The notes beneath the pieces were generated by a model. That model was not told the DNA's origin. It was given only the letters and a program-made list of their open reading frames with translations, and searched no databases. Below, piece after piece: positions 28,623 through 57,100 of a stretch of DNA of 64,000 nucleotides. Source of the DNA: Solirubrobacter phytolaccae. GTDB taxonomy: Bacteria; Actinomycetota; Thermoleophilia; Solirubrobacterales; Solirubrobacteraceae. The position numbers were made by a program, and so were the translations under genes. Numbering within the stretch: position 1 is the stretch's first letter; each line of letters begins with the position of its first letter. The stretch covers positions 1 to 64,000 of the forward strand of contig NZ_JAPDDP010000021.1 of the NCBI RefSeq assembly GCF_027587195.1. Direction: 5' to 3'.

Positions 28623-28715
28623 GCTGGGCAAGTGTCCAGCGTCCCGCAAACTGCAACCGCACCGATGGCCGGCCACGAGTTGCCGAGGGCCACGTCGAGT
28701 CGCTGCGCCCGTAGA

Positions 28716-28732
28716 TCATGCGGATCGGGTGA
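28716..28732. promoter_or_regulatory. 17-bp dyad TCAnnCG-N3-CGGGTGA, copy 1
   Basis: TCATGCGGATCGGGTGA, in the divergent region between the ECF sigma gene and a DUF1269 gene. It matches sites at 37125, 44215 and 47285. Confidence 0.45.
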
Positions 28733-28794
28733 TGCAGGGCGCCCGCGGACGCGGTTGGGTTGGAGGGGATCAGCCAGCGAGGAGGAGCCACGTC

Positions 28795-29292
28795 ATGAGC
28801 ACCCTGGTCGCCATCGCCTATCCCGACGTCGCCACCGCGGACGCGGTGCGGACGGAGTTGGTGCAGGCCACGAAGGAGAACCTGCTGGCGCTCGAGGACC
28901 TGGTGGTCGTTGAGCACCGGGGTGACGGGAAGGTCAAGCTGCGGCAGGGAGCGAGCCTGACCGGGGCCGGCGCGGCGGGCGGCGCGCTCTGGGGTGGCCT
29001 GATCGGGCTGCTGTTCCTCGCGCCCGTGATCGGGATGGCGCTCGGCGCCGCGACCGGCGCGGCCGCCGGCAAGGTCACGGACATCGGCGTGGACGACCAG
29101 TTCGTCAAGCAGCTCGGCGCGAAGCTCGGGCCGGGCGGCGCGGCGGTGATCGTGCTCGGCCGCGCCGGGGCGCCCGAGCGCGTGCTCGAGCGGATCGGGC
29201 GCTACGGCGGTGAGGTGATCCAGACCTCGCTGAGCCGCGAGGACGAGGCCCGCGTGCGCGACGCGCTCGGCGAGCCGGTTCCGGCGGCGTGA
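28795..29292 (+). CDS. DUF1269-family membrane-associated protein (copy 1)
   Basis: 165 residues. Starts MSTLVAIAYPDVATADAV; a central Gly/Ala-rich hydrophobic hairpin (GGALWGGLIGLLFLAPVIGM, then LGAATGAAAG) is flanked by alpha/beta segments. It ends GGEVIQTSLSREDEARVRDA. This is the DUF1269 pattern, of unknown function and often associated with stress and envelope genes. ATG 28795 has GCGAGGAGGAG upstream. The stop overlaps the ATG of the Ppx gene. The protein at 37225 is a close paralogue; the one at 36166 is more distant. Confidence 0.88.
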   Translation: MSTLVAIAYPDVATADAVRTELVQATKENLLALEDLVVVEHRGDGKVKLRQGASLTGAGAAGGALWGGLIGLLFLAPVIGMALGAATGAAAGKVTDIGVDDQFVKQLGAKLGPGGAAVIVLGRAGAPERVLERIGRYGGEVIQTSLSREDEARVRDALGEPVPAA

Positions 29293-30776
29293 TGGCGGTG
29301 CCGGCGGAGATCGTCCCGCGCTGGGAGTGGCGCAGCTTCGGGGAGCGCTTCGGCGCCGCCGAGGCCGCACTCACCGCGCGGACGCCGGAGCGGGTGCACG
29401 AGACGGACGAGCTGTACCTGCTCTCGCCGGAGAGCGACGCGTCGGTGAAGGTGCGCGACGCGCTGATGGACGTCAAGCAGCTCGAGGGCGTCAACGCGGA
29501 CGGGCTCGAGCAGTGGCGGCCGGTGATGAAGGCGGCGTTCCCGCTCGCCCCGACCGACGTGCGGTCGGTGCTGCAGGCGCTCCACGCCCCGGCTCCCCCG
29601 CCCGGTCCGCCCGCGTACGCGCTCGCCGACCTCGCCCGGCTCGCGCTCGCGGCGCCGGTCCACAAGCGGCGGGCCCACTATCGGCTTGACGGCTGCCTGG
29701 CCGAGCTGAGCGAGCTTCGCGTCGGTGAGCACTCGACGCGCACGATCGTGATCGAGGGCGAGGACCCGCGGCGCGTGATCGCGGCGGTGCGCAAGCTCGG
29801 CCTCGCCGGACGCCGGAACGTGTCGGTCGCGCGCGGGATCAAGGCGCTGCTCGGCGTCGGCGCGCACCGGTACGCGGTGATCGACGTCGGCACGAACTCG
29901 GTCAAGCTCCACGTCGCGGAGCGCTCCGCGGATGGCGAGTGGCACGCGCTCGCGGACCGCGCGGAGGTGACGCGGCTCGGTGAGGGCCTGCACGAGTCCG
30001 GTCGGCTGGGTGCGGAGCCGATCCGCCGCACGACCGACGCGATCACCGAGCTCGCCGAGGCGGCGCGGGCGCTCGGCGCGACGGAGATCGCCGCCGTCGG
30101 CACCGCGGGGCTGCGGCTCGCGCCCAACACGTCCGAGCTGATGGCGTCGGTGCACGCCGCCAGCGGCGTGATCGTGGAGGTGATCCCCGGCGAGGAGGAG
30201 GCGCGGCTCGCGTTCCTGGCCGCGACGGAAGGGCTCGGCCTCGGCCGGCAGTCGCTCGTGGTCTTCGACACCGGCGGCGGGAGCTCGCAGTTCACGATCG
30301 GTGCCGGTGGCCACGTCGCGGAGCAGTTCAGCGTCGACGTCGGCTCGGTGCGGTTGACCGAGCGCTTCGACCTGGACGAGGCGGTGTCGCGGGACGTCGT
30401 CGCGGCGGCGTGCGTCGCGGTCGCGGGTGATCTGGAGCGGCTCGCCGGCCGCCCCGCGGCGCCCGCGGTGATCGGCATGGGTGGCGCGGTGACGAACTTG
30501 GTCGCGATCGAGCTCGCGCTCGCGTCCTACGACCCCGACGCCGTCCAGGGCAGCGTCCTGCGCCGCGCGGACATCGCCGCCCAGATCGAACGCCTCCGCC
30601 GGATGAACGCGCAGGAGCGCCGGTCGATCGTCGGCCTCCAGCCCGCCCGCGCCGAGGTCATCCTGGCCGGCGCCTGCATCGTCCAGACCGTGCTCGACGT
30701 GCTCGGCGCCGAAGCGCTGACCGTGAGCGACCGCGCGCTGCGGCACGGCCTGATCGCGGACCGGTTCGCGCCCTGA
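29292..30776 (+). CDS. Exopolyphosphatase/GppA-family protein with N-terminal CYTH-like domain
   Basis: 494 residues. Residues from about 196 are Ppx/GppA: YAVIDVGTNSVKLHV, GTAGLRLAPN, IPGEEEARLAF, FDTGGGSSQF and IGMGGAVTNL, the ASKHA phosphate-binding loops. These enzymes release phosphate from polyphosphate or pppGpp. The first 190 residues resemble a CYTH / triphosphate-tunnel domain: RWEWRSFGERF, TDELYLLSPESDASVKVRD, LMDVKQLEGV and RTIVIEGEDP. The usual ExExK is not clear. It follows DUF1269 with a TGATG overlap. The length is near that of two-domain Ppx, but the extra domain is at the front. Confidence 0.85.
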   Translation: MAVPAEIVPRWEWRSFGERFGAAEAALTARTPERVHETDELYLLSPESDASVKVRDALMDVKQLEGVNADGLEQWRPVMKAAFPLAPTDVRSVLQALHAPAPPPGPPAYALADLARLALAAPVHKRRAHYRLDGCLAELSELRVGEHSTRTIVIEGEDPRRVIAAVRKLGLAGRRNVSVARGIKALLGVGAHRYAVIDVGTNSVKLHVAERSADGEWHALADRAEVTRLGEGLHESGRLGAEPIRRTTDAITELAEAARALGATEIAAVGTAGLRLAPNTSELMASVHAASGVIVEVIPGEEEARLAFLAATEGLGLGRQSLVVFDTGGGSSQFTIGAGGHVAEQFSVDVGSVRLTERFDLDEAVSRDVVAAACVAVAGDLERLAGRPAAPAVIGMGGAVTNLVAIELALASYDPDAVQGSVLRRADIAAQIERLRRMNAQERRSIVGLQPARAEVILAGACIVQTVLDVLGAEALTVSDRALRHGLIADRFAP

Positions 30777-30777
30777 G

Positions 30778-32637
30778 CTAGACCGACGCGTGCGCGTCGA
30801 GCGGCACGAGCCCGATGATGCGCGTGCCGCGTCCGGGCGCGCTGTCGATGCTCAGCGACCCGCCGACGGCCTCGAGCCGATCGCGCATGTTGCGCAGCCC
30901 GCTGCACGAGCGCAGCGTGCCGTCCAGCGACTCCACCGGCAGCCTGAACCCGGGGCCGTCGTCGCGCACCTCGAGCGCCAGCGTCCGGCGCTGCTCGAGC
31001 TGCACCCACACCGCGGTGGCCGTCGGCGCGTGCTTGATCGCGTTCTGCACCGCCTCCAGGCACGTGAAGTACACGGCGGTCTCGATCTCCATCGGCTGCC
31101 GGGTCAGCCCGATCGTCTGCAGGTGCAGCGGGACGGTCACGTCCGCCGCGAGGCTGCGCAGCGCCTCCTCGAGCCCACGGTCGCTGAGGATCGGTGGATA
31201 GACGCCGTGCGCGAGCGCCCGGAGCTCTTCGAGCGTGCGCTCGGCCTCCGTGCCGAGCTCGTGCAGCGCGTCGGCACCGCCCACGGGATCGGTGCGCAGG
31301 AGCTCTTCGGCGAGCGAGAGCCGGATCCGCAGCATCATCAGCCGCTGCTGGGCGCCGTCGTGGAGGTCACGTTCGATCCGGGCGCGCTCCAGGTCGGCCG
31401 CCTCGGCGATCCGGCGGCGCGACTGCTCGAGCTGGCGCAACGTCGCCGCGAGCCGGGTCGTGACCTCGTGATGGCGGACGGCCTCGCGCACGATGCCGCT
31501 GATCGCGCCCAGGAGCTCCTCGTCCCCACGGAGCCCGGGAGCGTGGACGAGCGCGACGACCGACACGCCGCTGTCGTCACGGATGATCGTCAGCTCGCGC
31601 CCGGCCGCCACCGGAAGCCGTCCCACGCGACGACCGCAGCTGTCGAGCCAGCGGACCGGACCGTCGGCGACCAGCACGTCGAGCGTCGGATCGCACAGCG
31701 CCGTCCGCAGCACGTCGCGCAGGCGGCCGGCGTCCACCCCGTCGCTCAGCTGGCCGGTCAGCCGCGCGAGCACGTCCCCGACCAGCAGCCGCCGGCGCAC
31801 GAGACCGACCCAGAACGCCGCGGCCAGCCCGGCGACGCACAGCCCCCACAGGAGCCCGAGCGTCTCGACCGCCGGTGCGGAGGGATCGGAGCGGCGCACC
31901 ACAAGGAACGCCGCCAGCAGCCCGACGGACGCGCCGCTCGCCAGCAGCACCGGCAGCAGGGTGCGCCGCCGCAGCGGCGTCGCGGCCCGCCAGCGCCACG
32001 CCATCGACCCGACCACCGCGGCGAACAGCAGGATCGCGAACAGCTCGCGCAGCGGCTGCACGACGGACTCCATGAACGCCGGTTCGCTGTCCAGCACCAG
32101 GAACGCGTTCGGCGGGCAGTCCTGGAGGCACGTCGCCCACGGCGTGTGCTCGGGGTAGTGCTCGACGAAGAGGGCCGATCCGATGTAGCCGAGCACGAGC
32201 AGCCCGTTCAACGCGCGGAACAGCGTGCGGTCGACCCCGCGCGTGACCCGTCCCGAGGGGAAGGCCGTCATCAGGAAGATCAGGCTCGGGAACACGAGCC
32301 ACGCCGCGACGCGGCCGACGCTGTAGGGGAGGCTGGCCTCGGACTCGCCGAGCGCCGTCAGCGACCACGCGAAGCCGGTGGCGATCAGCGCGAGGCCGAA
32401 GCGCACGTTCTCCGGCACCTGGATCGCGTACAGGCCCGCCGCGATCGGCACGGAGATCACCAGCAGCTCGATCGTCCCGCGCCCGACCGCCTCGTCCGCC
32501 GGGACGGAGCGCACGATGAACGTCACCGACACCGCGCAGACCGCCGCGCCGATGAGCCCGATCGTCGCCGCGAGACGGCGATGCAGGGTCGATGTCGTCG
32601 GCGCCGGACCGCGCTCGGCCGGCAGCAGCGCGCTCAC
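30778..32637 (-). CDS. Membrane sensor histidine kinase (NarL/LiaS-type)
   Basis: About 619 residues from GTG 32637. The N-terminal half has about eight membrane segments. A divergent sensor region comes next, then the HisKA_3 dimerisation segment with phospho-His in RIERDLHDGAQQRLMMLRIR, and an HATPase_c domain with N box EAVQNAIKHA and G boxes VRDDGPGF and GLRNMRDR. It pairs with LuxR-type response regulators, and one (33215) is encoded close by. The open frame continues upstream to 32799, but that part overlaps the divergent receiver gene region and looks non-coding. Confidence 0.88.
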   Translation of the reverse strand: MSALLPAERGPAPTTSTLHRRLAATIGLIGAAVCAVSVTFIVRSVPADEAVGRGTIELLVISVPIAAGLYAIQVPENVRFGLALIATGFAWSLTALGESEASLPYSVGRVAAWLVFPSLIFLMTAFPSGRVTRGVDRTLFRALNGLLVLGYIGSALFVEHYPEHTPWATCLQDCPPNAFLVLDSEPAFMESVVQPLRELFAILLFAAVVGSMAWRWRAATPLRRRTLLPVLLASGASVGLLAAFLVVRRSDPSAPAVETLGLLWGLCVAGLAAAFWVGLVRRRLLVGDVLARLTGQLSDGVDAGRLRDVLRTALCDPTLDVLVADGPVRWLDSCGRRVGRLPVAAGRELTIIRDDSGVSVVALVHAPGLRGDEELLGAISGIVREAVRHHEVTTRLAATLRQLEQSRRRIAEAADLERARIERDLHDGAQQRLMMLRIRLSLAEELLRTDPVGGADALHELGTEAERTLEELRALAHGVYPPILSDRGLEEALRSLAADVTVPLHLQTIGLTRQPMEIETAVYFTCLEAVQNAIKHAPTATAVWVQLEQRRTLALEVRDDGPGFRLPVESLDGTLRSCSGLRNMRDRLEAVGGSLSIDSAPGRGTRIIGLVPLDAHASV

Positions 32638-32819
32638 CTCACGTCTCGCCCGAGGCGATCGAACCCATGGGATGAACGGTCCCGCTGGGCGGGACGACGC
32701 CGCCTCGCCCGCGGCGGATGATCTCGCCACTCGGGGAAGCTCCTTCGTGCGTGCATCAGGCGCCTGCCGTGCAGGCCTCCTTGCCCGGGCCGCCGGCACC
32801 CGGGACGCTGCTCGCAGCC

Positions 32820-33212
32820 ATGGCCAGCTCCGAAGCGCAGCCGCCCGTCCGGGTCGTCGCCGTCGACGACCTGCCCGCGTTCCGGGCGACGGCCGCGGCG
32901 CTGATCGCCTCGACGCCCGGGTTCGAGCTCGTCGGCACCTCGGCGGACGGCGAGTCCGCGCTGCGGCTCGTACGCGAGACCGACCCCGATCTCGTCCTCG
33001 TCGACGTCCGCATGCCGGGGATCGACGGCGTCGCCGTCGCGACGCGGCTGCTGGCCGGCGACCCGACGCGGGTCGTCGTGCTCGCGTCGACGCTGGACCA
33101 GGCGTCGTTGTCGCGCGTCGCTCGTGGCTGCGGCGCCGCGGCCGTGATCTGCAAGCACTGGTTGACGCCGCGCCTGCTGCACGGCCTCTGGGTCGCGCAC
33201 CGGCGCCGCTGA
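32820..33212 (+). CDS. Stand-alone response-regulator receiver domain
   Basis: 130 residues. REC fold only: acidic pair in VVAVDDLPAF, phospho-acceptor Asp in LVLVDVRMPGIDGV, Ser/Thr in VVVLASTLD and Lys in AVICKHW. There is no output domain. It is encoded between the kinase (divergent) and the NarL-type regulator (convergent), so it may be a phosphate sink or relay for the same kinase. Start ATG 32820; the frame upstream is Pro-rich and unlike a receiver. Confidence 0.8.
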   Translation: MASSEAQPPVRVVAVDDLPAFRATAAALIASTPGFELVGTSADGESALRLVRETDPDLVLVDVRMPGIDGVAVATRLLAGDPTRVVVLASTLDQASLSRVARGCGAAAVICKHWLTPRLLHGLWVAHRRR

Positions 33213-33214
33213 CG

Positions 33215-33898
33215 CTACGGGACGCGGCTCACGCTGCCCGACTCCGACAGGAGCATGAGCGCCGCCTTGACGCGCTTGCTGACGTCCTCGGCGTTCGCGA
33301 GGCCGAGCTTCAGAAAGATCGCGTTGATGTGCTTCTCGACCGCGCGCTTGGTCAGGAACAGCTCCTCCGCGATCGCCATGTTGCTCTTGCCGCGCGCGAT
33401 CTCGACCAGCACCTCGCGCTCGCGTACCGTGAGCTCGTTCAGCGGCGACCGCTCTGCCTGGCTGCGGGCCGCCACCAGCGCGTCCACGATCTTCGCGTCC
33501 ACCAGCGAACCACCGGCGGCGACCGCGTGGATCGCGGCCGTCAGCTCCGCCCGGTTGTGCACACGCTCCTTCAGCAGGTAGGCCCGGCGGGCCGAGCCGC
33601 CGTCCAGTAGCGCCAGCGCGTAGATCGGGTCGGCGTACTGACTGAGCACGACCACCCCCGTCTCCGGGAACCGCTCGCGCAGCTCGGCGGCGAGGCGGAT
33701 GCCCTCGTCGGTGTTCGTCGGCGGCATCCGGATGTCCGTGACGACGACATCCGGGCGCTCGCGGTCGCACGCCTCGCGCAGCGACTCGAGATCCCCCACC
33801 GCGGCGACGACCTCGACGTCGGGATCGATGTCGAGCAGTTGCTTGACACCCTCGCGAACCAGCAGGTTGTCCTCGCCGAGCACCACCCGGATCGGCAT
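33215..33898 (-). CDS. NarL/LuxR-type response regulator
   Basis: 227 residues. Receiver domain with GEDNLLVREGV, phospho-Asp in VVVTDIRMPP and K in YLLKERV, then a LuxR helix-turn-helix (LTVREREVLVEIARGKSNMA, then LTKRAVEKHINAIFLKLGL). It is the probable DNA-binding partner of the histidine kinase at 30778. Its start is back to back with the MalT-like gene. Targets unknown. Confidence 0.92.
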   Translation of the reverse strand: MPIRVVLGEDNLLVREGVKQLLDIDPDVEVVAAVGDLESLREACDRERPDVVVTDIRMPPTNTDEGIRLAAELRERFPETGVVVLSQYADPIYALALLDGGSARRAYLLKERVHNRAELTAAIHAVAAGGSLVDAKIVDALVAARSQAERSPLNELTVREREVLVEIARGKSNMAIAEELFLTKRAVEKHINAIFLKLGLANAEDVSKRVKAALMLLSESGSVSRVP

Positions 33899-34066
33899 GG
33901 GCCGGACCCTACACGCCAGTTGGCGCGTTGCCGCGTTTCGTCAACCTTGGCCGCGATCCGGTCGAATCGGCCCACCACACCGGCGGAGGTGGTGCCTACG
34001 CCCGTGCCGGTCGGCGGGCGAGCGCCCTTGGCCGTCGGGGGCAGCTGGACGGATGCTGCTGGAGCC

Positions 34067-36169
34067 GTGTCCGCCTCCACGCTGACCCTGGTCGAGCCGC
34101 TCGCCCTCCCCGCCGCCGGGTTACCGGCGAGTGCGGTGCCGCGCACGCGGCTGGTGCGTCAGCTGACCACGACCGACGCGCCGATCGTCCTCGTCGTCGC
34201 CCCGGCGGGCTACGGCAAGACGACGCTGCTCGAGGAGTGGGCGGCGCGGGACCCACGTCCGTTCACCTGGCTCGCGTGCCCCGGCGACCACGCGGTGGAC
34301 GCGGTGCAGCGCCGGCTCGAGGGCGTCATCCGCTCGCCGGCGGCCCAGGTCGTCGTCGTCGACGACACGCGCCTGACCTCCCCCGCGCGCACGCAGGCGC
34401 TGCTCAACACGGCCTGCCGGCTTCCCCGCGGCAGCCGGTTGGTCCTCGCGTCGCGTGCACGCCCGCCCGGTGCGCTCGGGCGGCTGCGCGCGCGGCGGCT
34501 GCTGCTCGAGCTCGGAGCCCCGGAGCTCGCGCTCACCCCGCTCGAAGCCGCGCGGCTCGTCGAGACGGCCGGACTGCGGCTGGATCGCCACCGGCTCGGA
34601 CGGCTGCTCGCCCGCACCGGCGGCTGGCCCGTGATGGTCGACCTGGCCACGGCGGCGGTCGCCGGAGCCACGGATCAGGACGCGGCGATCATGGCCTTCG
34701 GCGGCGCCGACCGCGCGGTCGCCGAGCTGCTGCGCGACGAGGTGCTCGCCCCGCTCACCCCGGTCGAGCGCGCCTTCGTGCGGCGGACCTCGATCATCGG
34801 CCGGCTGACCGCGGGCGCCTGCGACGCCGTCCTCGACGGGCACGGCTCCGGCGCGACGCTGGAGCGGCTCGCGCGCTCCGGCGTCCCGATCGAGCCGCTG
34901 GACCGCACGGACCTCGCCTTCCGCTGGAACCCGCTGCTCGCGCAGATGCTCCGGGCCGAGCTCTGCGTCCACGAGCCGGAGCGGGTGGGCGTGCTGCACC
35001 GCCGCGCGGCGCGCTGGTTCACGCGCGAGCGCGAGCCGAGCCTCGCCATCCGCCACGCCGTCGCCTGCGGTGACACGCGGCTCGCCGGACGCATCGCCTG
35101 GGCGCACGCGCCGCGGCTGGCGGCGAACGGACGCGTCGAGCCGCTCGGCGAATGGCTCGGCGCCGTCCGGGGCTCCGCCGTGTCCGACGACGCGGGCCTC
35201 GCCTTGACCGCAACGGTCCACCACCTGCTCACGGGCCGGCGCCGGGCGGCGTGCGCCGCGGTCGCCGTCGCCGAGCACCGGCTGCAGACGGACCGGCTCG
35301 CCGGCGGCCACGCGGCGGTCGCGCTGCTGCGCGCGTGCCTCGCTCCGTCCGGCCTCGCGGCGGCCGCGCAGGACGCCGCCCACGCCCGTGCGCTGCTGCC
35401 CGCGGACAGCCCCTGGCATGCGCTCGCGCTCCTGATCCTCGGGATCGCCGCGCACCTGGACGGGGATGTCGAAGGCGCGGTCGTGTGCCTCGACGAGGCC
35501 GCGGGCCGCGCGACCGGTCACGTCGCGACGGTCGCGGCCACCGCGCATGCGCAGCTCGCGCTGGTCGCGGCGGAGATCGAGGACTGGGACGAGGCCGCCC
35601 ATCACGCGCTCGAGGCCCGCACGACGCTCCCGCCCACCGGACCGGAGGCGATCCACGCGTTCGTGGCCGCGACCTCCGCCGTCGTCGCCGCCCACCGCGG
35701 CGAGATCGCGCAGGCCCGGCACGACGCTGGAGAAGCCGACCGGCTGCTGGCGTCGCGCGCCGACTTCCCGCCGTGGCTCGTGTGCGAGGCCCACGTCTGG
35801 CTCGCCCGCGCCGCGATCCGCCTCAGCGACGGCCCGACGGCGCGTCGGCTGCTGGCGCGCGCGGCGCGGCTGGCCCCCACGGGCGGGGAGGCGGACGGGT
35901 TCTCGCGGTGGATCCACGACGGCTGGGAACGTGCGGACGCGTTCGCGGAGAGCGCCACGGGCGACGGCCCCGCGCTGACCAACGCCGAGCTGCGGATCCT
36001 GCGGCTGCTCCCGAGCCACCTGTCGTTCCGGGAGATCGGCGAGCGCCTGCACGTCTCCACCAACACGGTCAAGACGCAGGCGCTGGCCGTGTACCGCAAG
36101 CTCGACGTGTCGTGTCGCTCGGACGCGGTCGAGCGCGGCCGCCAGGCCGGCTTGGTCGGCGACACATGA
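34067..36169 (+). CDS. MalT-type LuxR-family transcriptional activator
   Basis: About 700 residues. The N-terminus VPRTRLVRQL precedes a STAND-type P-loop VVAPAGYGKTTLLEEWAARD, as in MalT. Next come Walker B-like VVVVDDTRL, a helical TPR-rich middle, and a C-terminal LuxR helix-turn-helix (LTNAELRILRLLPSHLSFRE, then VSTNTVKTQALAVYRKL). Start is uncertain: GTG 34067 gives a MalT-like N-terminus, while GTG 33989, 33992 or 34004 are possible. The stop overlaps the next DUF1269 gene (ATGA), an unusual partner for such a regulator, suggesting that it senses envelope state. Confidence 0.85.
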   Translation: MSASTLTLVEPLALPAAGLPASAVPRTRLVRQLTTTDAPIVLVVAPAGYGKTTLLEEWAARDPRPFTWLACPGDHAVDAVQRRLEGVIRSPAAQVVVVDDTRLTSPARTQALLNTACRLPRGSRLVLASRARPPGALGRLRARRLLLELGAPELALTPLEAARLVETAGLRLDRHRLGRLLARTGGWPVMVDLATAAVAGATDQDAAIMAFGGADRAVAELLRDEVLAPLTPVERAFVRRTSIIGRLTAGACDAVLDGHGSGATLERLARSGVPIEPLDRTDLAFRWNPLLAQMLRAELCVHEPERVGVLHRRAARWFTREREPSLAIRHAVACGDTRLAGRIAWAHAPRLAANGRVEPLGEWLGAVRGSAVSDDAGLALTATVHHLLTGRRRAACAAVAVAEHRLQTDRLAGGHAAVALLRACLAPSGLAAAAQDAAHARALLPADSPWHALALLILGIAAHLDGDVEGAVVCLDEAAGRATGHVATVAATAHAQLALVAAEIEDWDEAAHHALEARTTLPPTGPEAIHAFVAATSAVVAAHRGEIAQARHDAGEADRLLASRADFPPWLVCEAHVWLARAAIRLSDGPTARRLLARAARLAPTGGEADGFSRWIHDGWERADAFAESATGDGPALTNAELRILRLLPSHLSFREIGERLHVSTNTVKTQALAVYRKLDVSCRSDAVERGRQAGLVGDT

Positions 36170-36654
36170 ACACGTTGACGGTGTGGGCCTTTCCCGGCCC
36201 GGAGGACGCGGCGCTGGCGCTCGGGGAGCTCCGCGAGCTCGTCGAGGACGGTCAGGTCAGCGTGACCGACGCGGCGCTGGTCGCCTGGCCGCGCGGCCGG
36301 CGCACGCCCGCGACCCGCGAGCTCGGCGCCATCAGCGCGCCCGGTCAGATGTGGGGCGGGTTCTGGGGCATGCTCCTGGGCCTGGTGTTCCTCACGCCGC
36401 TGGCCGGCCCGGCGTTCGGCGCCGCCGCCGGGGCGGTCGCCGGGACGCTGGAGGACTTCGGCGTCGCCGACGACTTCGTCAAGCGCATCCGCGACCACGT
36501 CACGCCCGGCACGTCGGCGATCTTCGTGCTGACCGGGCGCGCCTCGGCCGACGAGGTGGCGGTTCGCCTCGCCGGCCCGGAGGTCGTGATGCTGCGCTCC
36601 GAGCTCTCCCCGGAGCAGGCCGAGCACCTGCGCAAGGCGCTCGCCGACGGATAG
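36166..36654 (+). CDS. DUF1269-family protein (divergent copy 2)
   Basis: 162 residues. Same layout as the other two DUF1269 proteins (GGFWGMLLGLVFLTPLAGPA hairpin, then DFGVADDFVKRIRDHVTPGT), but clearly more diverged, with a distinct front (NTLTVWAFPGPEDAALALGE). Translationally coupled to the MalT-like regulator. Convergent with the DUF7144 gene, whose stop begins at the next base. Function unknown. Confidence 0.82.
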   Translation: MNTLTVWAFPGPEDAALALGELRELVEDGQVSVTDAALVAWPRGRRTPATRELGAISAPGQMWGGFWGMLLGLVFLTPLAGPAFGAAAGAVAGTLEDFGVADDFVKRIRDHVTPGTSAIFVLTGRASADEVAVRLAGPEVVMLRSELSPEQAEHLRKALADG

Positions 36655-37089
36655 CTACAACTCGGCGCGCGCTTCCTCCCAGCGTGCCGTGAGCGCGTAG
36701 ATGACGATCACGTCGAGCGCGATGATCGTCAGCGACCAGATCGGGAACGCCGCGAGGAAGGCGATCTGCACGAGGATGCTCACGCAGGCGACGGTGACCG
36801 CGAGCACGCGCGCCCAGCCGTGTCCGGTGTTGAGCCCCATGCCGGCCGCGACCTGGGCCCCACCCCAGATCAGCATCACGATGCCCCACGTCTCGAAGTC
36901 GCCGACCAGCAGCTCGTTGCCGCTCTGGATGACGAAGTAGTCCTCGCTGAACAGCGCCGCGAACCCCTGGACGAGGTTGATCAGGCCCACCACCGCCAGC
37001 ATGATCGAGGCGAACACGACCCAGCCGGTCCACGCCGCGCCGGCGGAGGAGGCCTCGGCCGGCGGCACCCTTGTCTGCGTCTTGGTCAT
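36655..37089 (-). CDS. DUF7144-like four-helix membrane protein
   Basis: 144 residues. Four membrane helices: WVVFASIMLAVVGLINLVQG, a second after the GNELLVGDFETWG loop, VLAVTVACVSILVQIAFLAA and LTIIALDVIVIYAL. The FEDYF-type loop (FSEDYFVIQSGNELL) resembles the actinobacterial DUF7144 family. Function unknown. Divergent from DUF1269 copy 3, sharing the 37125 dyad. Confidence 0.8.
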   Translation of the reverse strand: MTKTQTRVPPAEASSAGAAWTGWVVFASIMLAVVGLINLVQGFAALFSEDYFVIQSGNELLVGDFETWGIVMLIWGGAQVAAGMGLNTGHGWARVLAVTVACVSILVQIAFLAAFPIWSLTIIALDVIVIYALTARWEEARAEL

Positions 37090-37124
37090 GCCCCGGAGCA
37101 TCCGGCGGCGGCCGCGCGGGGGCA

Positions 37125-37141
37125 TCATCCGATCCGGGTGA
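37125..37141. promoter_or_regulatory. 17-bp dyad TCAnnCG-N3-CGGGTGA, copy 2
   Basis: TCATCCGATCCGGGTGA, between DUF7144 (minus) and DUF1269 (plus). It lies inside a 28-base segment (37119-37146) that is identical to 47279-47306. Confidence 0.6.
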
Positions 37142-37224
37142 GGCGCGGTGGCCGCCCCGAGGTGACGATCCGGGCGTTCCGGCGCGGGTGGTCCGCTGCC
37201 GACCGACCGAAGGAGCTGAGCAGC

Positions 37225-37719
37225 ATGGGCAACCTCGTGGCGATCGCCTATCCCGACATGGCGACGGCGGAGCAGGTGCGCGCGGAGCTCGTGCAGGCGA
37301 CCAAGGAGCATCTGGTCGCCCTCGAGGACGCGGTCATCGTCGAGCACCGCGCCGACGGCAAGATCAAGTTGCACCAGGCGATGAGCACGGCGGGCGCGGG
37401 CGCGGCCGGCGGCGCGCTGTGGGGCGGCCTGATCGGCCTGCTGTTCCTCGTGCCCGTGTTCGGGATGGCGATCGGCGCCGCGTCGGGAGCGGTGGCCGGC
37501 AAGGTCTCCGACGTCGGCGTCGACGACACCTTCATGAAGACGCTCGGCTCCAAGCTCGTGCCCGGCGGCGCGGCGCTGATCGCGCTCGGGCGCGCCGAAG
37601 CGCCGGACAAGCTGCTCGACCGCCTGCGCCCGTTCGGCGGGGAGGTCATCCAGACCTCGCTCAGCACGGAGGACGAGGAACACCTGCGCGCCGTGCTCGG
37701 CGAGCCCGTCACGGCCTGA
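37225..37719 (+). CDS. DUF1269-family protein (copy 3)
   Basis: 164 residues. Very close to the protein at 28795: LVAIAYPDMATAEQVRAELV, GGALWGGLIGLLFLVPVFGM and GGEVIQTSLSTEDEEHLRA. A Gly-rich hydrophobic hairpin suggests membrane association. AAGGAG precedes ATG 37225. The P-type ATPase gene starts 30 bases later, so the two are probably co-transcribed. Function unknown. Confidence 0.88.
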   Translation: MGNLVAIAYPDMATAEQVRAELVQATKEHLVALEDAVIVEHRADGKIKLHQAMSTAGAGAAGGALWGGLIGLLFLVPVFGMAIGAASGAVAGKVSDVGVDDTFMKTLGSKLVPGGAALIALGRAEAPDKLLDRLRPFGGEVIQTSLSTEDEEHLRAVLGEPVTA

Positions 37720-37749
37720 CTGCGCGCCCCGAGGCCTGAAGGGAACGAG

Positions 37750-40470: not shown

Positions 40471-42034
40471 GCAGGCTCAGGGCAGCAACCGGCTCGCGCT
40501 GCTGCTGGCGGCGGCGATGTTCGTGCTCGTGGTCGACACATCGCTGATGAACGTGTCGATCGCGAGCGTGGTCGAGGACCTCGACACGACCGTCAGCGGT
40601 GTCCAGGGCGCGATCGCGCTCGAGGCGCTCGTGTCGGCCGCGTTCATCCTGATCGGGAGCAAGGTGGCCGACCTGTTCGGCCGCAAGCGCGCGTTCGTGC
40701 TCGGCCTGCTCGGCTACGCGACCGGCGCCGTGGCGATGACGTTCGCGCAGGGGCTGACGGCGATCATCGTCTTCTGGGCCGTGATCGGCGGCCTCGGCGC
40801 TTCGCTGCTGCTGCCCTCGATGCAGGCGCTGATCCACGGCAACTTCCAGGGCGCTGCGCAGAAGAAGGCCTACGCGCTCGTCGGCGCGGCCTCGGGGATC
40901 GCCGCCGCCGTCGGGCCGCTGCTCGGCGGGCTGCTGACGACGACGCTGTCGTGGCGCGTCGGCTTCGCGCTGGAGGCCGTCGTGATCGTGGTGGTGCTCC
41001 TGAACCTGCGGCTGATCGGTGACGTGCCGTACACCGGGCCGCGCAGGGTGGATGGCGTCGGCGCGGTGCTGTCGGCGGTCGGGATGGGCGGCGTGATCGT
41101 CGGCATCCTCGTCTGGCAGGAGGGCGGGGAGTACGTCGGCGTGCTGATCGCGGTCGGGCTCGTCGCCCTCGTCTCGCTCGCGCGCTGGCTCGTGCGCCGC
41201 CGCCGCGCGGGCCGCCCCACGCTGATCGATCCCGACCTGTTCCGCGAGGACCGCTTCCGGCTCGGGATCGGCTCGCAGATGCTGCAGAACATCGCGCTCG
41301 GCGGGATGATGATCGCGCTGCCGATCTTCCTGCAGATGGTGCTCGAGTACAACGCGCTCGAGACCGGGCTGACGATCGCGCCGCTGTCGCTGACGATGTT
41401 CGCCGCAGCGCTGCTGGCGGGTCGGCGGACGGGCGGCCGGCGGCCGGCGGCGGTCATCCGCGGCGGCTGGGCGCTGCTGCTGCTCGGGGTGGTGGCGCTG
41501 CTGCCGGTGGTGCCGCGCGCGGAATCGGGCTGGGCGCTCGTCGTGCCACTGATCGTCGCCGGCGCCGGGCTCGGGCTCTTGCTCTCCCAGCTGAACAACT
41601 ACACGCTCTCCCCTGTCTCCGACGAGCGCGTGAGCGAGGCCGCCGGGGTGAACTCCGCGGCCGGCTCGTTCGGCCTGTCGTTCGGGCTCGCGTTCGCCGG
41701 CGCGATCCTGCTGGCCACGCTCTCGCTCACCTTCACGCGCATGGCCGACGACAGCTCCGTGCTGCCGCCCGCCGCCAAGACGCAGGTGGCGCAGGCGCTG
41801 CAGGACGACGCGCAGGTGCTCAGCGACACCCAACTGCAGGCGCAGCTGCGCGGGCAGCCGCCGGAGATCCAGGAGGAGATGCTCGCGATCAACCACGACG
41901 CGCGGCCGCTCGCGCTCCAGGTCGCGCTCTTGATCCCGTTGCTCGCCGCGCTGCTCGGGTTCGTGAACGGGATGCGCATGCTGCGTCGTCCCGACCCGGT
42001 CGCGTCCGAGCGGGCCGACCTGGCGCTGGCATGA
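40463..42034 (+). CDS. MFS transporter of the DHA2 (14-helix) drug:H+ type
   Basis: 523 residues. The first helix reads MFVLVVDTSLMNVSI, as in EmrB/QacA transporters. Then motif A GSKVADLFGRKRAF, motif C region GAASGIAAAVGPLLGG, and about 14 membrane helices overall. It overlaps the ATPase gene by 8 bases and the following permease by 4, so the three form one operon. Substrate unknown; possibly a cationic toxicant. Confidence 0.88.
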   Translation: MAEQAQGSNRLALLLAAAMFVLVVDTSLMNVSIASVVEDLDTTVSGVQGAIALEALVSAAFILIGSKVADLFGRKRAFVLGLLGYATGAVAMTFAQGLTAIIVFWAVIGGLGASLLLPSMQALIHGNFQGAAQKKAYALVGAASGIAAAVGPLLGGLLTTTLSWRVGFALEAVVIVVVLLNLRLIGDVPYTGPRRVDGVGAVLSAVGMGGVIVGILVWQEGGEYVGVLIAVGLVALVSLARWLVRRRRAGRPTLIDPDLFREDRFRLGIGSQMLQNIALGGMMIALPIFLQMVLEYNALETGLTIAPLSLTMFAAALLAGRRTGGRRPAAVIRGGWALLLLGVVALLPVVPRAESGWALVVPLIVAGAGLGLLLSQLNNYTLSPVSDERVSEAAGVNSAAGSFGLSFGLAFAGAILLATLSLTFTRMADDSSVLPPAAKTQVAQALQDDAQVLSDTQLQAQLRGQPPEIQEEMLAINHDARPLALQVALLIPLLAALLGFVNGMRMLRRPDPVASERADLALA

Positions 42035-43160
42035 GCGTCCGCGGCGCGATCTTCCTCGGCGTCGGCTCGATGGTGGGCGCCGGCATCTTCGCCCTGCTCG
42101 GCGAGGCCGGCGCGGTGGCCGGTGCCGCGGTGTGGATGTCGTTCCTGCTGGCCGGGATCGTCGCGGGCCTGCTCGGCTACACGGCGTCAAGCTCGGCGTG
42201 CGCTTCCCGTCCTCCGGCGGCCTGATCGCCTACCTGATCGAAGGCTTCGGCAACGGCCGGCTGGTCGGGATCGCCTAGTGGCTGGGCTACATGTCGGCGA
42301 TCGTGATCGTCGAGCTGTGCGTGTTCGCGGTCTTCATCGCGGTCACGCTCCCCGACGTGGACTGGGGCCTGCTCGCGTTCAGCGGCTATCCCCCGCTCGC
42401 CGACGTCGTCGCCAGCGTCGCGCTGACGTTCTTCGCGTTCATGGGCTTCAGCGTGATTACGTTCTCGGCGGGCGACCTGCGCGATCCGGCGCGCGGGCTC
42501 CCGCGGGCGATGTACACCGCGCTGGCCGTGACCGGCGGCCTGTACGTCCTGATCGCGTTCGGCGTGTTCGGCACGCTGCCCGTCGACGACGTCGTCCGCC
42601 ACGGTGAGACGGCGATCGCCGAGGCCGCGCGCCCCGCGCTCGGTGACGCGGGCTTCACGATGATGGCGCTCGCGGCGATCCTGGCCACGACGTCCTCGGT
42701 CAACGCCACGCTGTACGCGTCCGGCGGCCTGACCCGGATGCTGGCCTCGGTCGGCCAGTTCCCGACCGTGTTCGGGCGCGCGACCAAGGGCGGCGCGCAC
42801 ATCGGCCTGCTGCTCACCGCCGCGCTCATCCTGCTCGTGGCCAACCTCGTCGACCTGTCGGCGATCGCCTCGCTCGGCAGCGCGATCGCGCTCTGCGTGT
42901 TCGTCCTCGTCGCGCTCGCCGGGTGGCGGCGGCGCGCGGACACGGGCGCGAACCCGGTGATCGCCGTCACCGCGATCGTCGTGGCGGTGGTCGTGCTCGG
43001 CTTCTTCGTGGCCGACACGCTGCGCAACGACCCGGCGACGTTCGTGGCGATCATCGCGCTGGCCGGGCTCGCCGTCGTGCTCGACGCGCTGTGGAAGCGC
43101 AGCGTGCGGCGCGACGAGCAGGCGCGCGGGCCCCACGAGGAGCGGCTCGCGCACCACTGA
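42031..43160 (+). pseudogene. Broken APC-family amino acid permease
   Basis: The start (VRGAIFLGVGSMVGAGIFAL) and the second part (VALTFFAFMGFSVITFSAGD to the C-terminus) are typical of an APC permease. The reading frame is lost near 42181-42190: the expected sequence (GVKLGVRFPSSGGLIAYLIE) continues in another frame, which is the frame of the downstream part. That frame has an in-frame TAG at 42276-42278. Compared with family members, several helices (roughly 75-80 residues by recollection of homologues) are also missing between SAIVIV and LPDVDWGLL. One frameshift, one nonsense codon and one internal deletion make a functional protein unlikely. The deletion rules out a single sequencing error. 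Confidence 0.8.
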
Positions 43161-43211
43161 CCTCCGGCCCGTCCGCCGTCCCCCGGGCGGGCGGGCCGGG
43201 GTCCACCCACG

Positions 43212-44180
43212 TCACGTGGCGCTCGGGGCGTGCGCGTCGGCGTCCGCGAGCAGCTCCTCCGCCTTGGCCTCGCTGCCGCGCGGGATCACGATCACCGGGC
43301 ACGCGGCGCGGTCGACGACGCGGCGGGAGACGCTGCCGAGCACGACCGCCCGGCGCGGGCCCAGGCCGCGTGAGCCCATGACCAACAGGTCCAGGTGCGC
43401 GGACGCGGCGACGAGCGCGCGGACCGGCTCGTCGATCATCACGTCGATCTCGGCGTCCACGCCTCCCGCCAGCTCGGTCAGCCGGGCGCGGGCGTTGGCC
43501 TCGATCGTGAACCGCATGCGCGCGGCGGTCTGCGCCTCGGTGCCGACCTCGTGGTGCTGCTCGGCGAGCAGGCCGTGCGCCTCCTCCTGCGCGTGCCGCG
43601 GATCGATCACGGTGAGCACGCGCAGCTTCGCGCCGCCGGTGCGCGCCAGCGAGCCGGCCACACGCAGGACCTCGTCGGACTCCGGTTGCGTGGGCAGCGC
43701 GACCCCGATCGTCGCGACGCCGCCGTCGGGCCGCACGTAGCCGTTCGGGACCACCGCGACCGGGCTCTCGCTGACGTGGATGACGCGCTCGGCCGTCGTG
43801 CCGAGGAGCATCGCGCCCCGGGGAGCGCGGCTCGTGGAGCCGACGACGACCAGCTCCGGCGAGCACTCGTCGATCGCCCGGGCCAGGCCGCGCGCCGCGG
43901 TGGAGTCCTCGAAGGGACGGATCTCGGCGACGATGCCGCGCCGCTCGAGGTCGTGCTCGAGATGGCGGACGGACTCGGCGATCGAGCCCGGAAGCGTCGG
44001 CGCCTCGTCGGCGCCGAAGTGCACGTGCAGCGAGCCCGTGTCGACCACGACGACGACCACGAGCGGCGCACCCGTCACGCGGCTCGCCGCCACGCCGAAC
44101 TCGACGGGCTCGCGCGCACCGGTGTCGGGCGAGAACGCCGCGATCACCGGGCTGCGATGGGTGTGGTCCAATGTCTCCAT
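43212..44180 (-). CDS. Universal stress protein, tandem Usp domains
   Basis: 322 residues with two UspA domains. Domain 1 (about 10-147) has the ATP-loop GSTSRAPRGAMLLGTTAERV. Domain 2 (about 155-305) has MGSRGLGPRRAVVLGSVSRR then CPVIVIPRG. Both keep the G-x2-G-x9-G-(S/T) ATP-binding pattern. Such tandem Usps accompany hypoxia and stress regulons in actinobacteria. It is divergent from hdeD with a 17-bp dyad between them. Confidence 0.92.
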   Translation of the reverse strand: METLDHTHRSPVIAAFSPDTGAREPVEFGVAASRVTGAPLVVVVVVDTGSLHVHFGADEAPTLPGSIAESVRHLEHDLERRGIVAEIRPFEDSTAARGLARAIDECSPELVVVGSTSRAPRGAMLLGTTAERVIHVSESPVAVVPNGYVRPDGGVATIGVALPTQPESDEVLRVAGSLARTGGAKLRVLTVIDPRHAQEEAHGLLAEQHHEVGTEAQTAARMRFTIEANARARLTELAGGVDAEIDVMIDEPVRALVAASAHLDLLVMGSRGLGPRRAVVLGSVSRRVVDRAACPVIVIPRGSEAKAEELLADADAHAPSAT

Positions 44181-44214
44181 GCCCCGACGCTAGGTCCGCG
44201 CCGGCCCGTGGGCA

Positions 44215-44231
44215 TCGCCTGATTCGGGTGA
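44215..44231. promoter_or_regulatory. 17-bp dyad TCAnnCG-N3-CGGGTGA, copy 3 (degenerate left arm)
   Basis: TCGCCTGATTCGGGTGA, between the universal stress gene and the HdeD gene. The right arm is perfect; the left arm differs from the best copies at three positions. Confidence 0.45.
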
Positions 44232-44352
44232 AGCCACACCCGTCGTGGACGGGTGCGCACACCACGTCGAGCGGCTGGCGCGCGCCCGTGCGCCCACCCC
44301 GCCGCGGCGGAACGATGACCTCGTTCACCACCCACTTCAAGGAGCGACCCGA

Positions 44353-44943
44353 GTGAGCTCGACCGTCTCCCCCCACGCCGGCGACGCCGCCCTCGGCGGC
44401 CAGTCGCAGGCGCTCGAACTCCAGGCCCAGAACCTCTGGTGGCTGTGGCTGATGACCGGCGTGGTCTGGATCGTCGCCGCCCTCGTGATCCTCCAGTTCG
44501 ACGCGGCCTCCGTGTCCACCGTCGGCGTGATCATCGGCTGCATGTTCGTCTTCGCCGGCATGACGAGCTTTCTCCAGGCCGCGGTCGCCGACCACCTGCG
44601 GTGGCTCTCGATCGTCTTCGGCGTGCTGATGCTGATCGCCGGGATCCTGTGCTTCGTCAACCCCGAGGCCACGTTCGCGGGCCTCGCCGACATGCTCGGC
44701 TTCCTGTTCCTGCTCGTCGGCGTCTGGTGGACGGTCGAGGCGTTCCTCGTCCAGGCCGGCAACCCGCTGTGGTGGCTGAGCCTGATCGCCGGGGTGCTGA
44801 TGATGATCGTGGCCTTCTGGACCGCCGGCCAGTTCTTCATCGAGAAGGCCTACACGCTGCTCGTCGTCGCCGGCATCTGGGCGCTGCTGCGCGGCGTCAC
44901 GGACATCGTGCGCGGGTTCCAGCTGCGGAACCTCACGCTGTGA
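44353..44943 (+). CDS. HdeD-family (DUF308) membrane protein
   Basis: 196 residues with six membrane helices in the DUF308 pattern: LWWLWLMTGVVWIVAALVIL, TVGVIIGCMFVFAGMTSFLQ, WLSIVFGVLMLIAGILCFVN and later segments. E. coli HdeD is an acid-resistance membrane protein; the mechanism is unknown. GTG 44353 has AAGGAGCGACCCGA upstream. The stop overlaps the next gene (GTGA). A 13-codon frame (ATG 44315) ends at the same spot and could be a leader. Confidence 0.88.
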   Translation: MSSTVSPHAGDAALGGQSQALELQAQNLWWLWLMTGVVWIVAALVILQFDAASVSTVGVIIGCMFVFAGMTSFLQAAVADHLRWLSIVFGVLMLIAGILCFVNPEATFAGLADMLGFLFLLVGVWWTVEAFLVQAGNPLWWLSLIAGVLMMIVAFWTAGQFFIEKAYTLLVVAGIWALLRGVTDIVRGFQLRNLTL

Positions 44944-45200
44944 CCGAGTTCCTGATCATCGTCACGCCGTTCCTGATCGTCCTCGCGGCCCTCTCCATCG
45001 TCGACCTGTTCGGCCGCGACTACGGCGGCTGGGCGATCACGGCCTGGGTGGCGTGCATCGTCTGCTTCCCCGTGCTCGGCTCGCTCGCCTACTGGCTCAC
45101 ACGTCGCGCCGCGCCCGAGAGCGCGGAGCAGGTCTACCTGGCCCAGGCCGACCTCCGGCGCGAGCGCGAGCGGCTGCCGATCGACCGCTCCGGCTACTGA
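44940..45200 (+). CDS. Small PLDc_N-type membrane protein
   Basis: 86 residues. Two membrane helices (FLIIVTPFLIVLAALSIVDL; WVACIVCFPVLGSLAYWL) match the phospholipase-D nuclease N-terminal family, here without any catalytic domain, as is usual for these small proteins. A charged tail (LAQADLRRERERLP) follows. Coupled to the HdeD gene by GTGA. Likely an envelope stress accessory; function unknown. Confidence 0.8.
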   Translation: MTEFLIIVTPFLIVLAALSIVDLFGRDYGGWAITAWVACIVCFPVLGSLAYWLTRRAAPESAEQVYLAQADLRRERERLPIDRSGY

Positions 45201-45280
45201 CGACGATCTGCTGGACCGCGCCCGGCGGCACGGCACCTGCACGGCGACCGACGCGGTCACGGTCGCCAGCAGGAGGCCGG

Positions 45281-45802
45281 TCATACCTTCGCGTGGGTCT
45301 CGTGCGCCACCACCGGGGTGCGCCGCGGGGGCGCCGGAGCCCGGGCGGGAACGTAGACCACGACGGTCCGGGCGATCCGGTCGTGCAGCGCGCGCCGCCG
45401 GCCGTCCACGAGGATCGTCAGGAACCCGGCGCACAGCGGGAGGGCCGAGAGCGGCAGCGCGAGCATGCGCAGCGCCGCGCGCCGGACCCGCAGCGGCTCG
45501 CCCGAGCGTGCCTCGCGGACCGTGATCCCGAGCAGCCGGTTGCCGGGCGTCTGCCCGTTGCCCGACCAGAAGAACACGAAGTACGCGGCCGTCCAGAGCA
45601 GCGCCACGCCGGCCGCGACGGCGGCGATGATCGTCCGCACCCCGTCCGGGACCGTCAGCAGGGACAGGCCGAGCGCGACGATCGCGCCCACGAGCCACGC
45701 GACGAGGTTGATCACCAGCGCGTCGACCGCGAACGCCAGCGTCCGGGTCGCCAGGCCGGCGTAGCTCGGCACCGGCGGCCCGGGCTCGGGCGGGACGTTC
45801 AC
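45281..45802 (-). CDS. RDD-family membrane protein
   Basis: 173 residues. RDD hallmark near the start: AGLATRTLAFAVDALVIN (R and D), then TPGNRLLGITVRE and a third Asp region DGRRRALHDRIARTVVVYVP. Four hydrophobic segments. GTG 45802 overlaps the stop of the upstream gene (GTGA). RDD proteins include Na+/H+ antiporters and proteins of unknown function. Confidence 0.88.
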   Translation of the reverse strand: MNVPPEPGPPVPSYAGLATRTLAFAVDALVINLVAWLVGAIVALGLSLLTVPDGVRTIIAAVAAGVALLWTAAYFVFFWSGNGQTPGNRLLGITVREARSGEPLRVRRAALRMLALPLSALPLCAGFLTILVDGRRRALHDRIARTVVVYVPARAPAPPRRTPVVAHETHAKV

Positions 45803-46470
45803 GCGGTGCCCGTCGTCGATGGCGCTCCTTCGCCCGCGGGCCGGCGGTGGAACAGCCGCCACGCGGCCCGCTCGAGCCGTTCGTCGGCGTTGCGCGAGCG
45901 CTCGCGCAGCTCGTCGCCCACCTGGTCGGCGAGGCCGGCGCTCTGCTGGGCGATCGCGTCCAGGACGGCCGGGCTCTGCGCGATGTCGTCGATCAACGTC
46001 CACAGCGCGCGGCTCTCGCGCAGTCGCCCGACGATGTCCTCGACGAGCCCCATCGTGGCGGTCTCGACGACGTCGCTCTCGACCACGCGCGCGATCATCC
46101 GCGCGGCTCCCGGGCTCGCGAGCGCCTGCTCGACGATGCGCTCGAGCTCGGGCCCTTCGAGCACCCGCTCGGCGAGTCGCTCGACCACGCCGCCGGCCAG
46201 CAGCCGGTCCGCCACCTGCTGCGCGGCGTGCTCCTCGTCCAGGCGGTCCAGGGCCCGGGCGACCACGTGCTCGGCCAGCGCGCTATCGACAATCCGCGTC
46301 ACGGCCTGGTGCGCGTACGGCGAGCCGAGGGCGGTGTCGACGCACACGAGCGTCACGCGCCCGCCGCCGTCGATCACGCGCCGGCGCGTGTCGCGCTCGG
46401 TCCGGAGGGCGAACGCCCAGCTCGCGCGCGCCGGGCGCAGCGCCGCGTCGGTGATTCGAGATCCGACCAT
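45799..46470 (-). CDS. Helical protein of unknown function
   Basis: 223 residues, not recognised. Mostly amphipathic helix with many charged residues (ERLAERVLEGPELERIVEQA, ALWTLIDDIAQSPAVLDAIA) and no membrane segment. It has a repetitive look of roughly 20-residue helices (VVARALDRL, VVERLAERVL, ARMIARVVE). Coupled to the RDD gene, so it may be a cytoplasmic partner of that membrane protein. Confidence 0.7.
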   Translation of the reverse strand: MVGSRITDAALRPARASWAFALRTERDTRRRVIDGGGRVTLVCVDTALGSPYAHQAVTRIVDSALAEHVVARALDRLDEEHAAQQVADRLLAGGVVERLAERVLEGPELERIVEQALASPGAARMIARVVESDVVETATMGLVEDIVGRLRESRALWTLIDDIAQSPAVLDAIAQQSAGLADQVGDELRERSRNADERLERAAWRLFHRRPAGEGAPSTTGTA

Positions 46471-46481
46471 CGCCTACAGCC

Positions 46482-46754
46482 TCAGCCCAGCACCTTGCGC
46501 TTCTCGGCGGCGAACTCCTCGTCGGTGAGGATCCCGTCGTCGCGGAGCTTGGCCAGCTCCCGCAGCTGCGCGACCGTGTCGACCGGCGGGGCCGACGGCG
46601 GCGGCGCGGCCGGCGGTTCCTCCGCGTACTGCGGCGGATAGGACCCCTGGCTCGCCCAGCGGTTCGCCTGGCGGCGTGAGACGCGGTTGCTGACGGCGGT
46701 CGCCGTGCCGGCGACGGCGGCGGTGCGGGCGATCCCGCGAAGCAGTCCGGGCAT
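46482..46754 (-). CDS. SHOCT-domain small protein
   Basis: 90 residues. A basic N-terminus with a short Ala/Val stretch (RTAAVAGTATAVSNRVSRRQ), a Pro-rich spacer and a C-terminal SHOCT helix pair (LRELAKLRDDGILTDEEFAA then EKRKVLG). SHOCT domains promote oligomerisation of short membrane-linked proteins. It is in the same minus-strand run as DUF6325, the helical protein and RDD. Confidence 0.88.
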   Translation of the reverse strand: MPGLLRGIARTAAVAGTATAVSNRVSRRQANRWASQGSYPPQYAEEPPAAPPPSAPPVDTVAQLRELAKLRDDGILTDEEFAAEKRKVLG

Positions 46755-46772
46755 GCGTGTCTCCTCTAGCTC

Positions 46773-47228
46773 TCAGCTCGCCGACGGGCTGGCGAGCTCG
46801 GTCTCCTCGAGCGCGGCAAGCAGCGCCTGGATGTGGATGCGCCCGCTCGCGGCGAGTTGGCCGCCGGAGCGCCGCAGCGCGACCGCCACCGGGGCGGCCC
46901 AGCGGTTCTCCCACACGAGCACGGCGGCGGAGGTCCCGGGCGCCAGCGCTTCGGCGGCCTCTTCGAGGTCCTCCTGCGTGATCAGGCCGGACGACGCGCC
47001 GTCGAACGCCTCGAAGCCGCCGCTGCCGCCATTGTCCGCGCCGAAGTCGACGGCCGCGACGGTGCCGTTCTCGGCCTTGATCATCAGCGCGACGTCGAGC
47101 ACGCGGATGATCCCGCGCTCGACGAGGTCGATCAGCAACGGCACGACCTCGCCCTTCGGCTGCCGGCCCGGCCATTCGAGCACGACGTAGTCGATCGGGC
47201 CCATTTCCTCGAGCGCTTCCTCGGTCAC
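46773..47228 (-). CDS. DUF6325-family protein
   Basis: 151 residues. Begins MGPIDYVVLEWPGRQPKGEV after a short acidic leader, with a later LEEAAEALAPGTSAAVLVWE. This matches DUF6325, which recalls the alpha/beta halves of DUF1269 proteins without the membrane hairpin. GTG 47228 was chosen over ATG 47204 because AAGGAGG lies 7 bases upstream. It is the first gene of the minus-strand run, divergent from the coiled-coil gene across a 17-bp dyad. Function unknown. Confidence 0.78.
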   Translation of the reverse strand: MTEEALEEMGPIDYVVLEWPGRQPKGEVVPLLIDLVERGIIRVLDVALMIKAENGTVAAVDFGADNGGSGGFEAFDGASSGLITQEDLEEAAEALAPGTSAAVLVWENRWAAPVAVALRRSGGQLAASGRIHIQALLAALEETELASPSAS

Positions 47229-47284
47229 CGGTTCCTCCTTCTCAGACGGGAATCCGAGCATCGCCCCGGGGTCCCGGCGGGGCA

Positions 47285-47301
47285 TCATCCGATCCGGGTG
47301 A
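47285..47301. promoter_or_regulatory. 17-bp dyad TCAnnCG-N3-CGGGTGA, copy 4
   Basis: TCATCCGATCCGGGTGA, between DUF6325 (minus) and the coiled-coil protein (plus). The surrounding 28 bases equal 37119-37146. Confidence 0.6.
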
Positions 47302-47336
47302 GGCGCATCCCGCGCCGGCGGAGCAGCCTCGGGAAC

Positions 47337-57024: not shown

Positions 57025-57028
57025 CAAG

Positions 57029-57100
<72 letters not shown>

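Follow-up and report, generated by a model that had tools for sequence, protein, structure and literature searches.

The window analyzed here, a 64,000-nucleotide (64-kb) stretch of Solirubrobacter phytolaccae DNA, contains a dyad, TCAnnCG-N3-CGGGTGA, that the original prediction had placed in four divergent gaps between stress and envelope genes and had read as a site used by some unknown stress regulator or else as an unusual promoter. The four copies, at 28716, 37125, 44215, and 47285, are all present when the sequence is read directly: a direct reading and a rescan both find TCANNCGNNNCGGGTGA matched exactly at 28716, 37125, and 47285, and the copy at 44215 is TCGCCTGATTCGGGTGA, with two mismatches to TCANNCGNNNCGGGTGA. 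The predicted 28-base identity between 37119-37146 and 47279-47306 is exact, and the bases on either flank of it differ. Gene calls, with the genes identified by Pfam, place all four copies in divergent gaps as claimed, these being the gaps between an extracytoplasmic function (ECF) sigma factor and a DUF1269 protein, a DUF7144 protein and a second DUF1269 protein, a Usp protein and an HdeD-like DUF308 protein, and a DUF6325 protein and a coiled-coil protein. Thus the motif as originally drawn is real, but the element is longer, at 23 bp, the copy at 28716 is imperfect, and a fifth copy at 32702-32724 had not been listed. The palindromic sites, none of which is assigned to a strand, are as follows, with their scores in a symmetric matrix trained on 96 sites, all from outside the window.

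28713-28735, no strand: palindromic site 1, imperfect, in the ECF sigma/DUF1269 gap; score 23.9
37122-37144, no strand: palindromic site 2, GCATCATCCGATCCGGGTGAGGC, in the DUF7144/DUF1269 gap; score 31.1
44212-44234, no strand: palindromic site 3, GCATCGCCTGATTCGGGTGAAGC, in the Usp/HdeD gap; score 15.2
47282-47304, no strand: palindromic site 4, GCATCATCCGATCCGGGTGAGGC, in the DUF6325/coiled-coil protein gap; score 31.1
32702-32724, no strand: palindromic site 5, GCCTCGCCCGCGGCGGATGATCT, in the gap between a histidine kinase gene and a receiver-domain gene; score 15.5

These five are the top matrix positions in the 64 kb and all are intergenic; the sixth-ranked position scores 5.0 and lies within a gene, and the maximum in the reversed window is -0.9. 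Site 1 fits best when read on the minus strand, as GCATCACCCGATCCGCATGATCT. The genes that adjoin the sites are the following.

28119-28622, minus strand: ECF sigma factor, putative target
28795-29292, plus strand: DUF1269 protein, putative target
30778-32637, minus strand: HisKA_3 histidine kinase, adjoining site 5
32820-33212, plus strand: stand-alone receiver domain, adjoining site 5
36655-37089, minus strand: DUF7144 membrane protein, putative target
37225-37719, plus strand: DUF1269 protein, putative target upstream of P-type cation ATPase and MFS genes
43212-44180, minus strand: Usp protein with two Usp stretches, putative leaderless target
44353-44943, plus strand: HdeD-like DUF308 protein, weak putative target (130 bp from the palindrome centre)
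46773-47228, minus strand: DUF6325 protein, putative target, followed by a SHOCT protein gene (46482-46754) and two more genes
47337-47939, plus strand: coiled-coil protein with an N-terminal hydrophobic segment, putative leaderless target

Because the fifth copy lies between the histidine kinase gene and the stand-alone receiver gene, these signalling genes may themselves belong to the regulon.

The 23-bp palindrome and its distance to predicted promoters

Sites were collected, with their flanks, from the home genome, from its order (232 genomes, of which 47 have a strict site), and from a few other Actinomycetota, which after removal of duplicates gave 100 distinct sites. The full element is the 23-bp palindrome GCATCAYCCG-N3-CGGRTGATGC, and the consensus over the collected sites is GCATCACCCG-N3-CGGGTGATGC, in which the seventh base of the arm is T in place of C in one third. 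The site sets were picked by the strict pattern, so that the central 17 bases are conserved partly by construction; the same does not apply to the -10 element, the outer GCA/TGC arms, the intergenic position of the sites, or the start-codon distances. A scan of the 7.74-Mb home genome, the check proposed at the outset, finds the exact pattern 12 times, both strands counted, and the reversed control not at all; a longer form of the motif picks out further palindromes on other contigs. At two mismatches the home genome gives 129 matches compared with 35 for the reversed controls, a set that was left out of any sizing of the regulon because real and random sites are mixed in it. Equal frequency inside genes, which would have spoken against a regulatory role, is not what is found: of the 100 sites, five fall within a called gene by 60 bp or more, compared with 73% expected from the gene share of the loci (p 4e-47).

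A fixed distance to a promoter is also apparent. On 41 of 108 gene-facing sides a [TG]AnnnT hexamer begins at +31, counted from the centre of the palindrome, and on another 17 at +32, together 58 of 108, where the background at other offsets is about one per offset (p 9e-54 for +31 alone), and at 10 sites a -10 is present on both sides. A -10 at +31/+32 puts the predicted transcription start at about +43/+44, and thus the palindrome is centred near -43, overlapping the position of the -35 element. In the 58 promoters a -35 element (TTGACA, four of six bases matched, at the proper spacing) occurs in 9%, compared with a background of 5%, and hence no -35 hexamer is discernible. Start codons peak at 43-47 bp (25 cases) and at 62-76 bp (28 cases) from the palindrome centre. 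In 17 of the 58 promoters transcription is predicted to begin at the start codon itself, and for this reason the 43-47 bp class appears to give rise to leaderless transcripts, which would make many transcripts of this set leaderless; the 62-76 bp class leaves room for a Shine-Dalgarno sequence. Across six DUF6325 promoters, of which one comes from a different family outside the order, identity is 87% in the palindrome, 70% in the -10 region, and 38-40% in the flanks. Within the window the predicted hexamers are these.

37164-37169, plus strand: predicted -10 hexamer GACGAT of the DUF1269 promoter, +31 from the centre
37097-37102, minus strand: predicted -10 hexamer GATGCT of the leaderless DUF7144 promoter, with the ATG at 37089, 44 bp from the centre
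44187-44192, minus strand: predicted -10 hexamer TAGCGT of the leaderless Usp promoter, with the ATG at 44180, 43 bp from the centre
47257-47262, minus strand: predicted -10 hexamer GATGCT of the DUF6325 promoter, with the start 65 bp from the centre
47324-47329, plus strand: predicted weak -10 CAGCCT of the leaderless coiled-coil gene promoter, with the ATG at 47337, 44 bp from the centre

At site 1 a -10 hexamer was sought at the usual spacing and none is present, and at site 5 the same check found no clear one.

Class II activators sit at about -41 to -43, and by analogy the palindrome would occupy a class II activation position. A dimeric activator may bind GCATCAYCCG-N3-CGGRTGATGC, centred some 43 bp before the transcription start, where it would replace the -35 element and contact RNA polymerase carrying a housekeeping-type sigma factor, and because the site is symmetric and lies mid-gap, a single palindrome could fire, and thereby serve, two divergent promoters. 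Overlap with the -35 region would also be compatible with a repressor whose operator overlaps the promoters, but the -35 hexamer is absent, and a -10 spacing precise to 1 bp is expected of an activator and is unneeded by a repressor, so that we regard repression as improbable. Still less credible is that the element is the promoter of an alternative sigma factor, for example the ECF sigma factor encoded at 28119-28622. In two species a site does precede the ECF gene, but the palindrome is symmetric, and the downstream element is the housekeeping-like [TG]AnnnT. Moreover, the cognate ECF gene does not accompany the element: an orthologue occurs in five Solirubrobacter species and in one genome that is devoid of sites, and about 40 other site-bearing genomes are without it, and the ECF sigma factor was rejected as the recognizer. 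The intergenic placement and the fixed promoter distance support the original idea of a regulator site or unusual promoter, and stress would be the signal as judged from the target genes only.

Candidate binders of the palindrome

Three candidate binders encoded in the cluster were compared, namely the ECF sigma factor discussed above and the following two regulators.

34067-36169, plus strand: MalT-like large ATP-binding LuxR-type (LAL) regulator of the signal transduction ATPases with numerous domains (STAND) class, best candidate binder
33215-33898, minus strand: NarL-type response regulator (Response_reg and GerE domains), rival candidate

The 34067-36169 product matches Escherichia coli MalT (PDB 8bob) over residues 96-379 with E 2e-23, is 26% identical to it by blastp over 401 amino acids, and has a GerE domain at 636-688, and so combines the STAND nucleotide-binding region and the C-terminal GerE helix-turn-helix (HTH) of the LAL/MalT family; its HTH is 39% identical to that of E. 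coli MalT over 57 amino acids. When presence of the LAL regulator in the 232 genomes is defined as a hit with E at most 1e-55, strict sites occur in 27 of the 48 genomes that have it and in 20 of the 184 others (Fisher p 1.8e-10). In a joint model that includes genome size and completeness, p is 6e-5 for the LAL regulator and 0.03 for the response regulator. LAL-type genes also lie near sites in many loci, those of Kocuria included. The MalT-box core GGA[TG]GA, as quoted in PMC9628970, is contained in the half-site CGGRTGA, for which the composition-matched chance is about 0.8%. A comparison of the recognition helix among the LAL orthologues gives no separation of site-bearing from site-less genomes. 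As a control, the unrelated large LuxR regulator encoded at 12416-15118 does not track the sites, being present in two congeners that lack the regulon and absent from two that bear sites.

The same class II operator might instead be bound by the NarL-type regulator, phosphorylated by the neighbouring HisKA_3 kinase, in a stress regulon resembling that of DosR/DevR. Palindromes near -42 are the classical binding sites of NarL-family proteins, and Usp genes are found within DosR regulons. The NarL-type regulator occurs in five site-bearing Solirubrobacter genomes (75-85% identical outside the window) and is absent from two congeners without the regulon, it tracks the sites across the 232 genomes (23 of 41 with it compared with 24 of 191 without, p 1.1e-8), and a dyad lies in the kinase/receiver gap. 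But its gene is not found wherever the sites are. Indeed, nine site-bearing genomes have the LAL regulator and no response regulator, and several of their sites have the -10 spacing; conversely, among the 16 genomes in which the response regulator is found and a strong LAL hit is not, 11 are without a site, and the joint model gives the response regulator the weaker contribution. On these sequence comparisons the MalT-like LAL regulator is favoured as the best candidate, and binding by the NarL-type regulator seems unlikely. We are marginally more doubtful that the operator serves another dimeric regulator encoded outside the window, with the LAL and response regulators as fellow members of a lineage-specific stress module. 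Some genomes have well-formed sites without strong hits to either regulator (for example G120, with two sites that have the -10 spacing), but the half-site contains the MalT-box core, and LAL genes adjoin sites in several families.

We consider it somewhat more likely than not that the repeated dyad is the operator of one actinobacterial stress/envelope regulon under a class II activator, which would most likely be the MalT-like LAL regulator of 34067-36169 together with its paralogues. In E. coli MalT a ligand turns the resting ADP form into an active ATP oligomer (PMC10427625), and the mechanism proposed here assumes a similar ligand-gated switch, so that the LAL regulator would be switched on by its ligand. 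Several observations weigh against this explanation. No strong LAL hit is found in 20 of the 47 site-bearing genomes (27 have one, and many genomes are incomplete), 21 of the 48 LAL-bearing genomes have no strict site (the whole of genus g45, for example), and five genomes have sites and the response regulator and no strong LAL hit, with LAL fragments at contig edges in two of them. The co-occurrence statistics for the LAL and response regulators ignore kinship among the genomes. E. coli MalT uses asymmetric boxes rather than one palindrome, and the repeated asymmetric boxes of the mal promoters are not seen here, where there is a single symmetric palindrome. Finally, 36 of the 100 sites, that at 28716 included, have no -10 at +31/+32 on either side, and the gene starts come from a home-made, simple composition-based caller.

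Known relatives, putative targets, and spread

The system resembles that of E. coli MalT in its STAND-type ATPase with a C-terminal LuxR-type HTH, in a promoter element upstream of the -10, and in the core GGA[TG]GA. It differs in that the E. coli boxes are asymmetric and repeated, whereas in Solirubrobacter a single symmetric palindrome of 23 bp stands at a fixed distance, and in that MalT targets maltose genes, whereas the putative LAL targets are stress and envelope genes. With mycobacterial DosR/DevR it shares a palindromic operator near -42, Usp-type targets, and a kinase and NarL-type regulator in the cluster, but the operator sequence differs, and the NarL-type gene predicts the sites less well than the LAL gene. 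In Streptomyces coelicolor the LAL regulator SCO6993 binds short palindromes, at its own promoter too, but it is a repressor for whose sites no consensus emerged (PMC9628970), whereas the Solirubrobacter element has a strict consensus and an activator-type position. A search of the open-access literature found nothing relevant on the motif, on DUF6325, or on DUF1269 in connection with LuxR or a regulon. A palindromic activator site is a known kind of element, and the regulon and its operator appear to be new.

Among the families beside sites, DUF1269, DUF6325, and SHOCT proteins are each found at nine, DUF7144 at seven, and the coiled-coil protein at five, followed by RDD, a 223-amino acid family, MFS, and a 70-amino acid 'YEIRV' family (four each), Usp and class II glutamine amidotransferase (three each), and CYTH-Ppx and ECF sigma (two each). 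For DUF1269, DUF6325, DUF7144, SHOCT, and the coiled-coil protein, which are widespread and uncharacterized, this would be a first shared regulatory identity and a tie to Usp genes. LAL/STAND regulators are common in actinobacterial genomes and almost never have a known operator consensus, and the system offers a test case for how they recognize DNA and activate leaderless divergent promoters. A weaker copy, GCCTCATGCCGATCGGGTGAAGC, is present on contig C66 of the home genome at about 21241. It is 43 bp away from the start of a gene encoding a product that begins like the CYTH-type proteins beside other sites, and this CYTH-like gene is likely a further member of the regulon.

Genomes outside the order seldom carry the long form of the motif: eight of some 380 sampled have it. 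Members of the target families are present at sites in Actinomadura fibrosa, Jiangella, Kocuria, and other Actinomycetota genomes, and in Humibacillus a related small membrane protein is at the site. The broader proposal is of an actinobacterial regulon, with traces across the phylum, whose regulators are MalT-like STAND ATPases akin to NLR-type sensors. They would recognize a single symmetric palindrome and from it switch on two divergent promoters, often leaderless ones, of stress/envelope genes (DUF6325, DUF1269, DUF7144). This is a tentative reading, to which we give not quite even credence.

Some other occurrences fall outside this pattern. The exact 23-mer also occurs in proteobacteria and a planctomycete (5 of 14 contigs), with no convincing promoter context there, and these matches are probably due to chance. 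The congeners G001 and G006, in which the LAL, response regulator, and ECF genes are all absent, each have two copies of a different palindrome form only, TCATCCG-N3-CGGATGA, with G/C-only centres. The reversed control pattern, AGTRGGCNNNGCCYACT, occurs once per genome in about ten genomes of the Solirubrobacterales genera g45 and g46, where it probably reflects a conserved gene or another palindrome. Elsewhere in the window, two ordinary tRNA genes are encoded on the minus strand, tRNA-Met (CAT) at 48864-48936 and tRNA-Asn (GTT) at 57028-57100.
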